A DNA stretch of 64,000 nt from Aurantimonas aggregata. Its GTDB lineage: Bacteria; Pseudomonadota; Alphaproteobacteria; Rhizobiales; Rhizobiaceae. Every line of letters begins with the position of its first letter. The stretch's first letter is position 1. Positions 7,968 to 11,969 of the stretch are shown here, piece after piece. Location of the stretch: assembly GCF_010500835.1 (NCBI RefSeq), contig NZ_JAAAMJ010000001.1, positions 620,001 to 684,000 on the forward strand, given 5' to 3'. The position numbers were made by a program, and so were the translations under genes. The notes beneath the pieces were generated by a model, which saw only the letters and a program-made list of their open reading frames with translations, was not told the DNA's origin and made no database searches.

Positions 7968-8777
7968 ATGTCCGAATCCCGACCAGAACCCGCTGTGCGC
8001 CTTACCGATTCCGACGTCGTCAGCGCGCCTGAGCTGGCTGCGGCGAGCGCCGTCCGGCACGGCTTCTTCACCCGACGCGGCGGCGTTTCGGGAGGCATCT
8101 ACCAGGGGCTGAACGTCGGCTTCGGATCCGATGACGACCGAGCCGCCGTCGCGGAAAACCGTGCGCGGGCGATGGCCTATATGGGCCTCGGCGACGGTGA
8201 TTTCGTCACGCCGTGGCAGATCCATTCGCCGGAAGTGATCGTCGTCGACGGACCGTTCGAGGGCGAGCGGTCCAAGGCCGACGGCGTCGTCACCCGCCGC
8301 CCGGGCCTTGCCATCGGCGTCCTCACGGCGGATTGCGGACCGGTACTGTTTGCCGATCCGCGCAACGGCGTCGTCGGCGCAGCCCATTCCGGCTGGCGCG
8401 GCGCGCTGGGCGGCGTCCTCGAGGCCACCATCGCGGCGATGGAATCGGCCGGCGCCGAGCGGGGCGCGATCACCGCCGTGCTCGGGCCGACCATTACCCA
8501 GCCCAATTACGAGGTCGGCGTCGCGATGATGGACGAGTTCCTCGACGGCGACGCGTCGCGCGAACGGTTCTTCGCGCCGGGGCGCGCTGCCGACAAGCGG
8601 CAGTTCGACCTGCCCGGCTTCATCGTCGCCCGGCTACTCGACAGCGGCGTCACGGCGAGTTTCGTCGGCGTCTGTACCTATGCCGAACCGGATCGCTTCT
8701 TCTCCTTCCGGCGCACCACCCACCGCGGCGAGCCCGACTACGGTCGGCAGCTTTCCGCGATCGCACTGCGGGACTGA
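7968..8777 (+). CDS. pgeF: Peptidoglycan editing factor PgeF (laccase-domain, YfiH family)
   Basis: This 269-residue protein has the multicopper-oxidase-like YfiH fold. Diagnostic motifs are GFFTRRGGVSGGIYQGLN, the LTADCGPVLFAD stretch, AAHSGWRGALGGV with the metal-ligand His, and the terminal CTYAEPDRFFSFRRT. In E. coli PgeF/YfiH trims faulty peptidoglycan precursors; older annotations call the family polyphenol oxidase. The ATG at 7968 lies 33 bp behind the methyltransferase gene, and a degenerate M24 protein starts five bases after its stop. Confidence 0.94.
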   Translation: MSESRPEPAVRLTDSDVVSAPELAAASAVRHGFFTRRGGVSGGIYQGLNVGFGSDDDRAAVAENRARAMAYMGLGDGDFVTPWQIHSPEVIVVDGPFEGERSKADGVVTRRPGLAIGVLTADCGPVLFADPRNGVVGAAHSGWRGALGGVLEATIAAMESAGAERGAITAVLGPTITQPNYEVGVAMMDEFLDGDASRERFFAPGRAADKRQFDLPGFIVARLLDSGVTASFVGVCTYAEPDRFFSFRRTTHRGEPDYGRQLSAIALRD

Positions 8778-8781
8778 CACC

Positions 8782-9936
8782 ATGCTGCACTTCGGACGGG
8801 ACGAATACGAAGCGAGGCGCGACCGGCTGGTCGTCGAGATGGGCGAGCAGAAGCTCGACGCGATGATCCTGTTCGCGCAGGATTCGATGTACTGGCTGAC
8901 CGGCTACGACACGTTCGGCTTCTGCTTCTTCCAGTGCCTGGTGGTGAAGGCGGATGGCGACATGCGGCTGCTCAGCCGCTCGGCCGACCTTCGCCAGGCC
9001 CGCCACACCTCGATCATCGAGAACATCACCGTCTGGCGCGACCGCGGCAACGCTGAGCCGGTGATCGAACTGCGCGACATGCTGGACGAGATGGGCCTCC
9101 TCGGCGCCAAGATCGGCGTCGAGTGGGCGACGCACGGCCTGACGGCGGCGAACGGCCGCTCGGTCGAGGAGCGGCTCGGCTCCTTTGCGTCGCTGAAGGA
9201 TGCCTCGACGCTGATCCCGCTGCTGCGGGCGGTGAAGAGCCCGGCGGAGATCGAGATCGTCCGCGAGGCCGCCCGGCTCGCCGATGCCGCCTACGAGGCG
9301 GCGCTGCCGCTGATCCGGCCCGGCGCCGACGAGGCCGAGGTCCTCGCGACGATGCAGGGGACGGTGCTGGCGGAGGGTGGCGACTATCCGGCCAATCCGT
9401 TCATCATCGGCTCCGGCCGCGACGCCCTGCTCTGCCGCTACAAGGCGGGCCGCCGAAAGCTCGATGCGAACGACCAGCTGACGCTGGAATGGGCCGGGGT
9501 GAAATCGCAGTATCATGCCGCCCTGATGCGCACCGTGATCATCGGCACGCCGACGGAGCGGCATCGGGAGCTGCATGCCGCCGCCCGCGAGGCGCTGGAC
9601 GCCGTCGAGGCGGTCATGCAGCCCGGACACAGCTTCGGCGAGGTGTTCGACGCCCACGCGGCGGTGATGGAGGCGCACGAGCTGGCGCGCCACCGCCTCA
9701 GCGCCTGCGGCTACTCGCTCGGCGCGCGCTATGCGCCGTCCTGGATGGACATGCCGATGTTCTACTCGGGCAATGCCGAGATGATCGTGCCGGGCATGAC
9801 GCTGTTCGCGCACATGATCATCATGGACTCCGACACCGAGACGGCGATGACCCTCGGGCGCACCTATCTGACGACGGCCGGCGCGCCCGAGCCGCTGTCG
9901 CGGCTGCCGCTGGACCTGGCGGTCATCCGCGGCTGA
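8782..9936 (+). CDS. M24-fold (creatinase/aminopeptidase P-like) protein lacking the metal ligands
   Basis: This 384-residue protein has the two-domain M24 layout: an N-terminal creatinase-like domain (about 1-145, with MYWLTGYDTFG) and a pita-bread domain from about 152 (KSPAEIEIVREAARLAD). By eye alignment with PepQ/PepP, the five metal ligands D-D-H-E-E fall on E236, A247, Y311, H344 and G359, and the conserved substrate His falls on R219. It is therefore unlikely to be a working metallopeptidase; a creatinase-like or binding role is possible. Start ATG at 8782 follows pgeF by four bases. The gene keeps its place between pgeF and prs, so it is probably under selection. Function unknown. 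Confidence 0.85.
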   Translation: MLHFGRDEYEARRDRLVVEMGEQKLDAMILFAQDSMYWLTGYDTFGFCFFQCLVVKADGDMRLLSRSADLRQARHTSIIENITVWRDRGNAEPVIELRDMLDEMGLLGAKIGVEWATHGLTAANGRSVEERLGSFASLKDASTLIPLLRAVKSPAEIEIVREAARLADAAYEAALPLIRPGADEAEVLATMQGTVLAEGGDYPANPFIIGSGRDALLCRYKAGRRKLDANDQLTLEWAGVKSQYHAALMRTVIIGTPTERHRELHAAAREALDAVEAVMQPGHSFGEVFDAHAAVMEAHELARHRLSACGYSLGARYAPSWMDMPMFYSGNAEMIVPGMTLFAHMIIMDSDTETAMTLGRTYLTTAGAPEPLSRLPLDLAVIRG

Positions 9937-10043: not shown

Positions 10044-10874
10044 GTGGAAGCCCGCACCACCCTTCGCAGGCCGATCATCGCAGCCGGTCTGTGCGCGACG
10101 CTGGCGAGCTGCACCGGCGTCGATCCGATGATCGGCATGGCCGACGCGCCCGTGCCGAGCGTCGATGTCGGCTATCCCGGCATGAGCTTTTCGCCGACGG
10201 TGGCGCCGGCACCGGCCTACAACGTCGCCACCAACAACGCGTCACTGCAGCCGCCGGCCCCGATCGCCTCGGCGCCGGAGCCCTTCGTCAGCCAGCCGGC
10301 ACCGTTGCCGCCGCCGTCGATGGGACAACCGCCCGCGATGCCCCCGCAGCAGGCGCCCTTCCAGACCTACGAAGAAGCACCCCCGCAGCAGACATACGAG
10401 CCCGCGCCGCCGCAGCAGACATACGAGCCGGCTCCGCCGCCGGCGCAGTCCGTGCAGATGGCAGCCGTTCCGCCGCCCGCCGCGCCGGCGTCGGCCAGCG
10501 GGTCGCTGGCGAGTCGCGAAATCCAGTTCCTGCCGCTGACCGGCGCGCCGGAGGACAAGGCGGTGATGCTCGCCCGCTCGCTCTCCGACAGTGCCGCGAC
10601 GGCGGGCGTCGAGATCCGTCCCGCCGGCGGCCCGGCGACGCCGGTGCGACTCAAGGGCTATTTCTCCGCCTTCAACGACGGCTCGTCGACCACGTTGGTC
10701 TATGTCTGGGACGTCCTCGACCCCAACGACCAGCGCATCCACCGCATCCAGGGCCAGGAAAGCGTGCCGGGCACGTCGAGCGATCCCTGGGCCGATATCG
10801 GCCAGGCGCAGCTCGATGCCGTCGCCGACCGGACGCTGCGCGACGCCGCCGCGCTGGTGGGGCAAGCCGGCTAA
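10044..10874 (+). CDS. Pro/Gln-rich outer-membrane-type lipoprotein of unknown function
   Basis: This is a 276-residue protein with an N-terminal lipoprotein signal: RR, a short hydrophobic core and the lipobox LASC with the acceptor Cys at residue 23. Residues about 55-150 are low-complexity, rich in Pro, Gln and Ala, with a repeated QQTYEPAPP unit. A folded C-terminal domain (about 155-276) contains EIQFLPLTGAP, LKGYFSAFNDG and LVYVWDVLDPNDQRIHRI. It starts with GTG at 10044 behind CAGGGAG at 10031-10037. A lipoprotein at this place, between the M24 protein and prs, is typical of the group. I do not recognise a function; the spacer suggests it reaches through the periplasm. Confidence 0.85.
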   Translation: MEARTTLRRPIIAAGLCATLASCTGVDPMIGMADAPVPSVDVGYPGMSFSPTVAPAPAYNVATNNASLQPPAPIASAPEPFVSQPAPLPPPSMGQPPAMPPQQAPFQTYEEAPPQQTYEPAPPQQTYEPAPPPAQSVQMAAVPPPAAPASASGSLASREIQFLPLTGAPEDKAVMLARSLSDSAATAGVEIRPAGGPATPVRLKGYFSAFNDGSSTTLVYVWDVLDPNDQRIHRIQGQESVPGTSSDPWADIGQAQLDAVADRTLRDAAALVGQAG

Positions 10875-11036
10875 GCCTTTGCCCTGATCACGCCGCCAGG
10901 CACAGACTCCGGGTTGATGTTTCGCCCGATGTTGTTATGAGCCCGTCCATCAATCGGCCCTTCGATGGGCATCAGCGGAAGGATGCGCATGCAGCGCCAG
11001 GTACCGCGTCGCCGTCCCGCCAGCGGAAACAACGCG

Positions 11037-11969
11037 ATGAAACTGTTCGGCGGCAACTCCAATCGTGTGCTGGCCGATTCCATCGCCCAGTATCTGGAGA
11101 TCCCGCTGGGCCAGGCCATGGTCCGCCGCTTCGCCGACCAGGAAGTGTTCGTCGAGATCAAGGAGAACGTCCGCGGCGAGGATGTCTTCATCGTCCAGTC
11201 GACCTCCTATCCGGCCAACGATCACCTGATGGAACTGCTCATCATGATCGACGCCATGCGGCGGGCCTCGGCCAGACGCATCACGGCGGTGCTGCCGTAT
11301 TTCGGCTATGCGCGGCAGGACCGGAAGGCCGGCGGCCGCACGCCGATCTCGGCCAAGCTCGTCGCCAACATCATCACCGAGGCCGGCGCCGACCGGGTCA
11401 TGACGCTCGACCTGCATGCCGGGCAGATCCAGGGCTTCTTCGACATCCCGACGGACAATCTCTTCGCCGTGCCGCTGCTGTCGCGCGACGTGAAGGAGCA
11501 CCAGGACCTCGACGACCTGATGGTCGTCTCGCCGGATGTCGGCGGCGTGGTGCGCGCCCGTTCGCTCGCCAAGCGGCTCGACGCGCCGCTCGCCATCGTC
11601 GACAAGCGCCGCGACCGGCCGGGCGAGTCGGAGGTGATGAACATCATCGGCGACGTCACCGGGCGCAACTGCATCCTCATCGACGACATCATCGATTCCG
11701 GCGGCACGCTGTGCAACGCCGCCGATGCGCTGATGCGGGCCGGCGCCAACAGCGCCTCGGCCTACATCACCCACGGAGTCCTTTCGGGCGGCGCCGTCAC
11801 CCGGATCAGCGCCTCGAGCCTCAAGGAACTGGTGATCACCGATTCGATCCAGCCGACCAAGGCCGTGCTGGAGGCGCCGAACATCCGGGTGATCACCACC
11901 GCCAATCTCCTCGGCGAGGCGATCCAGCGCACCGCATCGGAAGAATCGGTCTCCAGCCTGTTCGACTGA
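11037..11969 (+). CDS. prs: Ribose-phosphate pyrophosphokinase (PRPP synthetase)
   Basis: This 310-residue class I PRPP synthetase makes PRPP from ribose-5-phosphate and ATP, feeding purine, pyrimidine, His, Trp and NAD synthesis. Landmarks are [39 protein letters not shown], the Mg-binding [17 protein letters not shown], the flexible [14 protein letters not shown] loop, and the PRPP loop [15 protein letters not shown] at 11037 fits the family start; a longer frame from 10965 has no support. In this window apt and trpEG use its product. Confidence 0.97.

Follow-up and report, generated by a model that had tools for sequence, protein, structure and literature searches.

Introduction

The M24 metallopeptidases hold their metal with a D-D-H-E-E set of residues. 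Creatinase is a metal-free member of the same fold, which relies on a catalytic histidine (His232). EutD also works without metal, and in a structure study of this enzyme Glu255 was reportedly the covalent nucleophile. In Spt16 and Ebp1, the M24 fold occurs without catalysis or peptidase function. Two reports describe EutD as an M24 protein that resembles creatinase and hydrolyses ectoine (PMC3187862; PMC8739950). For the creatinase of A. faecalis, a third report states that Mn and Mg enhance the enzyme and that >80% of the activity is kept with EDTA (PMC7568399); on this evidence, a "metal-free" creatinase is not contradicted, yet the case is not simple. Here we describe a gene from a stretch of 64,000 nucleotides of Aurantimonas aggregata DNA (the window), and compare its product with these systems.

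Results and discussion

The gene lies at positions 8782..9936 of the window, as an earlier note on this DNA had stated, and the ORF, Pfam matches and alignments identify its product as an M24 (EutD/creatinase-like) protein of 384 amino acids without the metal set. All window features given below by coordinate are on the + strand. The probable start is the ATG at 8782, 4 bases past the pgeF stop at 8777; there is an alternative in-frame ATG at 8680, but homologue alignments begin at residue 1 or 2. Two Pfam domains were found above the gathering score, Creatinase_N at residues 12-151 (65.8 bits) and Peptidase_M24 at residues 159-363 (104.9 bits). The closest named relative, from Aurantimonas endophytica, shares 97% identity, and the Aurantimonas aggregata genome holds the gene as a single copy.

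A structure model was built by AlphaFold2 from an input of 29 sequences, taken from the window and the loci. It reached a mean pLDDT of 86 and a pTM of 0.85, with weaker blocks at residues 201-220 (75, 72) and 301-320 (66, 58), the latter reflecting low confidence in the active-site loops. With this predicted model as the query, EutD 6yo9 was the top match both in Foldseek (E 1.9e-32) and in VIA-align (Z 41.8, rmsd 3.9, 26% identity over 375 aligned residues). Prolidases and PepE came next, and creatinase 1chm scored Z 37.6. The best sequence match among structures was EutD as well (6twk, E 1.4e-33), and in a profile search several prolidases scored between EutD (1.4e-36) and creatinase (1.2e-14). 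The modelled protein shows the M24 fold. Creatinase (creatine amidinohydrolase) has this fold and the Creatinase_N domain in common with the window protein, but shares only ~20% identity with it and is a weaker profile match than EutD.

For the residue analysis, a close set of 111 sequences was used, made up of the window and 110 loci, one of which (L001) is the window gene itself, leaving 109 independent rows. For the tree, 200 M24 regions from loci, orthologues included, and 6 from plasmid records were reduced to 90 rows with less than 72% identity. The clade of the window protein comprised 77 rows, reaching down to 33% identity, with an SH-aLRT of 100 and a stem of 1.53 changes per site. 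Apart from it stood an EutD clade of 7 rows (SH-aLRT 100) in this quick tree, in which certain distant M24 rows sit on long branches and are placed with uncertainty. Of the 90 tree rows, the clade counts given below omit these 7 EutD rows and a further 6 that are distant M24 sequences. Matches at E up to 1e-60 were present in 59/289 genomes sampled from the class, a count that includes the window's own genome, and a phylum sample of 398 genomes gave 31 that matched at 1e-45, all from the same class or nearer; relatives at 33% identity were found in plasmid records of Actinomycetota. In one family, two loci (L120, genome G413; L124, genome G311) carry 3-4 clade copies in one stretch and more elsewhere, which suggests substrate diversification.

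We then compared the residues at the metal and pocket positions. The five metal positions are taken by E236, A247, Y311, H344, and G359, and the place of the substrate His by R219. E236, A247, and Y311 aligned with residues of the P. furiosus prolidase 1pv9 that we take to be metal Asp 1, metal Asp 2, and the metal His. H344 and G359 were placed via the family alignment and the structural superposition, over the full length, on prolidases and creatinase, and by the M24 motifs they presumably represent the two metal Glu positions. R219 aligned with EutD H238, and E236 with EutD E255 by residue count along the alignment; that Arg also stands at the creatinase His position follows via the EutD alignment, not from a direct alignment with creatinase. 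Compared with the Xaa-Pro dipeptidase and aminopeptidase PepQ and PepP, the window protein keeps the fold, the length, and the MRT and GSG motifs (MRTV at 249-252, GSG at 210-212, both found as claimed before), but the D-D-H-E-E set of the metallopeptidases reads E-A-Y-H-G, with ligand positions 2-5 replaced, position 1 changed from Asp to Glu, and the substrate His changed to Arg. The earlier note had proposed that all metal ligands are lost. Its reading of the five positions and of R219 was correct, but E236 is still acidic, as in EutD. As Glu is the usual EutD state at this position, one acidic group has been retained.

R219, E236, Y244, H245, Y311, and H344 were identical in 111/111 close sequences, and G359 was found in 110/111, a pattern far beyond chance. 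At the metal ligand 2 position, A247 (9520..9522), Ala (57) and Pro (54) account for the 111 sequences. In the wider clade, the Arg replacing the substrate or general-base His, R219 (9436..9438), was present in 77/77, and His in 18/18 EutD rows. E236 (9487..9489), at metal ligand 1 and equivalent to EutD E255, was Glu in 75/77 and Gln in 2, and Glu in 18/18 EutD rows; Y311 (9712..9714), at the ligand 3 (His) position, was found in 76/77 with one X, and as Tyr in 18/18 EutD rows. In the N-terminal domain, R66 and D69 (8977..8988) were common to clade (77/77) and EutD (18/18). In the Y244-H245 pair (9511..9516), Y244 was constant in the clade (77/77), and in some of the more distant copies Cys or Asn takes the place of H245. 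P319 was found in 77/77, G310 in 76/77, and W321 (9742..9744) in 74/77, with Trp in 18/18 EutD rows. The 18 EutD rows were thus identical to the clade at R66, D69, E236, Y244, G310, Y311, P319, and W321. Other positions were specific to the clade: H344 (9811..9813), at ligand 4, in 74/77, where EutD has Met in 17 rows and Gln in 1; D349 (9826..9828), in 74/77, where EutD mostly has Leu; and G359 (9856..9858), at ligand 5, Gly in 73/77 and Ala in 4, where EutD mostly has Thr or Ser. Judged from the aligned residues, the metal constellation has been lost across the whole clade, and a replacement set of R66, D69, R219, E236, Y244, Y311, P319, W321, H344, and D349 is conserved, partly in common with EutD. 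These residues make a metal-dependent peptidase activity unlikely. Since the substitutions are common to the 111 close sequences and the 77 clade rows, a local mutant amid orthologues with intact ligands is excluded within this sample.

Two copies (L121:6990-8138 and L125:6959-8101) have Gln in place of Glu at position 236, and are possibly a natural inactive or re-specialised pair.

The same residues could be read as a one-metal site in a shifted position, formed by E236, H344, and perhaps Y311 or D349, which would make the protein a metalloenzyme. E236, Y311, H344, and D349 are all conserved, and H344 occupies ligand position 4; but at most two usual ligands, Glu and His, are left at the five canonical positions, and EutD, the closest relative, has Glu where E236 stands and Met where H344 stands, and is regarded as metal-free. 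We consider such a site improbable.

In public records, clade relatives bear the name "Xaa-Pro peptidase family protein" and a GO term for proteolysis, as in NZ_CP015738.1 (L190), NZ_CP091852.1 (L191), NC_008270.1 (L193), and NZ_CP022567.1 (L194). The metal set was absent from L190, L191, and L193 upon inspection of their residues. We read "Xaa-Pro peptidase" as a misnomer for the clade of this gene.

Among the described systems, EutD/DoeA (6twj, 6twk, 6yo9) resembles the window protein most, with a two-domain M24 fold, no metal constellation, and Glu at metal position 1, and with R66, D69, Y244, Y311, P319, and W321 of the window protein shared. The two differ in several respects: identity is ~25-30%, Arg stands at 219 where EutD has His, H344, D349, and G359 are specific to the window clade, the window protein falls under both NCBIfam cut-offs, and the two proteins form separate clades and co-occur in genomes. 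This bears on the reading of the protein as an ectoine hydrolase, or as a relative with an equivalent function, whose substrate would be ectoine or hydroxyectoine. The DoeA models are indeed its best family matches (167.5 and 158.3 bits), and E236, R66, D69, Y311, and W321 are in common with EutD, but the scores lie far under the cut-offs of 575 (NF038259) and 613 (TIGR02993), and the EutD His is Arg in 77/77 clade rows. Moreover, true EutD above the cut-off, found in 48/150 genomes of the order, occurs together with an orthologue of the window M24 gene in many genomes, G069, G105, G136, and G023 among them, so that these are two different genes. By four sequence-based tests (the two model cut-offs, the His position, and the tree) the protein is not EutD, and action on ectoine seems very improbable.

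The Aurantimonas aggregata genome contained no EutD above the cut-off, its sole match being the M24 gene itself (158.8 bits), and the cut-off and residue tests ruled out an ectoine hydrolase in this species.

We next consider the chromosomal setting of the gene. pgeF (7968..8777) is the upstream neighbour of the M24 gene, and is annotated as such in the relatives L194 and L195. The two genes adjoin at 107/110 close loci, the window copy counted among them; at the other 3/110 no pgeF was seen. Downstream, the ORF of prs spans 10965..11969, with the usual start probably at 11037, and is annotated as ribose-phosphate pyrophosphokinase in L194 and L195. The M24 gene had been placed between pgeF and prs; pgeF does adjoin it, but a proline-rich, lipoprotein-like ORF from the ORF list (10044..10874) intervenes before prs, as it does at most close loci. 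The pgeF-M24 arrangement also occurs in genomes from other orders within the class (L138, L140, L141, L142, L152, L154), and L122 and L158 have the reversed order, M24 and then pgeF. The 10044-10874 ORF was not detected at the pgeF-linked loci of other orders. The dN/dS ratio of the window gene (NG86) was 0.07-0.30 against 10 orthologues, and 0.07 (L002) and 0.12 (L003) for the closest pairs, which are the best guide because larger dS values are perhaps underestimated in GC-rich DNA. The gene is therefore under purifying selection, and together with the conserved gene order these values bear out the earlier view that it is not decaying. Local mutation or decay was ruled out by residue conservation and dN/dS.

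A fixed chromosomal place beside housekeeping genes could also fit a pseudoenzyme, which would use the M24 fold to bind a small ligand or a partner protein and would have a regulatory role in the lgt-pgeF-prs neighbourhood. The metal ligands are gone, the structural matches include the M24-fold N-terminal domain of Spt16 (5ce6, Z 33.2), and an Ebp1-type non-peptidase M24 pseudoenzyme has been published (PMC3888471). Unlike Spt16 and Ebp1/PA2G4, however, the window clade keeps a conserved residue set partly common to EutD. The pocket positions belong to the best-conserved ones of the protein, and some of them are those of a working enzyme. In addition, a near-identical 17-position signature recurs in copies beside importers (L119, L145) and beside an agmatinase-family gene (L134). 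For these reasons we regard a pseudoenzyme, one of two readings offered in the earlier note, as rather unlikely. The other, a non-metallo enzyme in the manner of creatinase, is the better of the two, and the sequence, profile, and structure matches favour EutD/DoeA as the model for it.

On balance, we favour the view that the window protein belongs to a distinct clade of metal-independent C-N hydrolases of the M24 fold, related to EutD but apart from it. It would probably degrade a small nitrogen compound instead of peptides, most likely as a homodimeric hydrolase of a small carboxylated substrate of the guanidino, ureido, or cyclic amidine/amide type. In the mechanism that we propose, the protein would act as a homodimer and its conserved residues would line one pocket. 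E236 would be the catalytic Glu, as is said of EutD Glu255; R66 and D69, contributed by the partner subunit, may help to hold the carboxylate, by analogy with creatinase; and R219, in place of the EutD His, would anchor or polarise a charged group of the substrate. The Arg at 219 is the real novelty of this proposal and also its weakest link. As EutD and creatinase keep a His and the clade has Arg, their chemistry cannot be transferred unchanged; the reaction may be another one, or the protein may bind its ligand without turning it over.

More tentatively, the clade might join creatinase and EutD as a third catalytic class of metal-free M24 proteins, with an invariant Arg for the general-base His and a new substrate. 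Such a class would open or cleave a carboxylated guanidino, ureido, or cyclic-amidine metabolite. It would occur widely in Alphaproteobacteria, have relatives in Actinomycetota, and be a class mistaken for an Xaa-Pro peptidase. Reading the gene correctly would clear a recurrent annotation error and define a new active-site type on the well-studied M24 fold. It would also point to a nitrogen-compound metabolism kept by many bacteria, including one with a genome of 1.2 Mb (L119). A search of a literature collection with few subscription journals returned no paper on a pgeF-linked M24 gene, nor on a metal-free M24 clade that carries this Arg.

The surroundings of the window copy consist of the housekeeping genes lgt, pgeF, prs, and rplY, and hence give no information on the substrate. 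Copies at other loci have more varied neighbours. In the 1.2-Mb genome, the M24 gene is followed by genes for a solute-binding protein, a permease, and an ATPase, an importer whose nearest models are of the aminophosphonate type, with scores below the cut-offs; a related importer adjoins the M24 gene in L145. In L160 and L161, the M24 gene is accompanied by a PotD-like importer as well as by an oxidase, for which the nearest model is L-pipecolate oxidase, below the cut-off. In L134, 26 bases separate M24 from the end of a gene of the agmatinase family (TIGR01230 match above the cut-off), which runs on the same strand; a gene of the DDAH/arginine-deiminase family adjoins M24 in L166, and L133 has an imidazolonepropionase neighbour above the cut-off. 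On Paenarthrobacter and Rhodococcus plasmids (L192, L193), a creatininase-family gene is located directly 3' of M24, and in L191 two M24 copies flank an ABC importer, with a hydantoinase/carbamoylase gene nearby.

The Pfam tally of neighbours covered 102 of 149 ORFs from 26 loci, with L190-L193 among the proteins left out, and gave a wide mix of 92 families, in which parts of ABC importers were the most frequent. Arginase-family genes occurred at 3/26 accessory loci, against 0.61 expected (P ~0.02, for a family chosen post hoc); this enrichment is weak, since the genomes concerned carry as many as 23 such genes. Overall, the neighbours give a weak hint of substrates of the guanidino, ureido, or cyclic-amidine type. 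Neighbour enrichment as a proof of the substrate was dropped, being too weak after the background count.

A different EutD-like protein was observed in an importer cluster at L170:4199-10952. It keeps the His and shares ~31% identity with the window protein, and may represent another uncharacterised metal-free M24 branch. The same cluster also contains an HDAC-type amidohydrolase-like ORF, recognised by eye and with no model match, and an amino-acid-oxidase-like gene.
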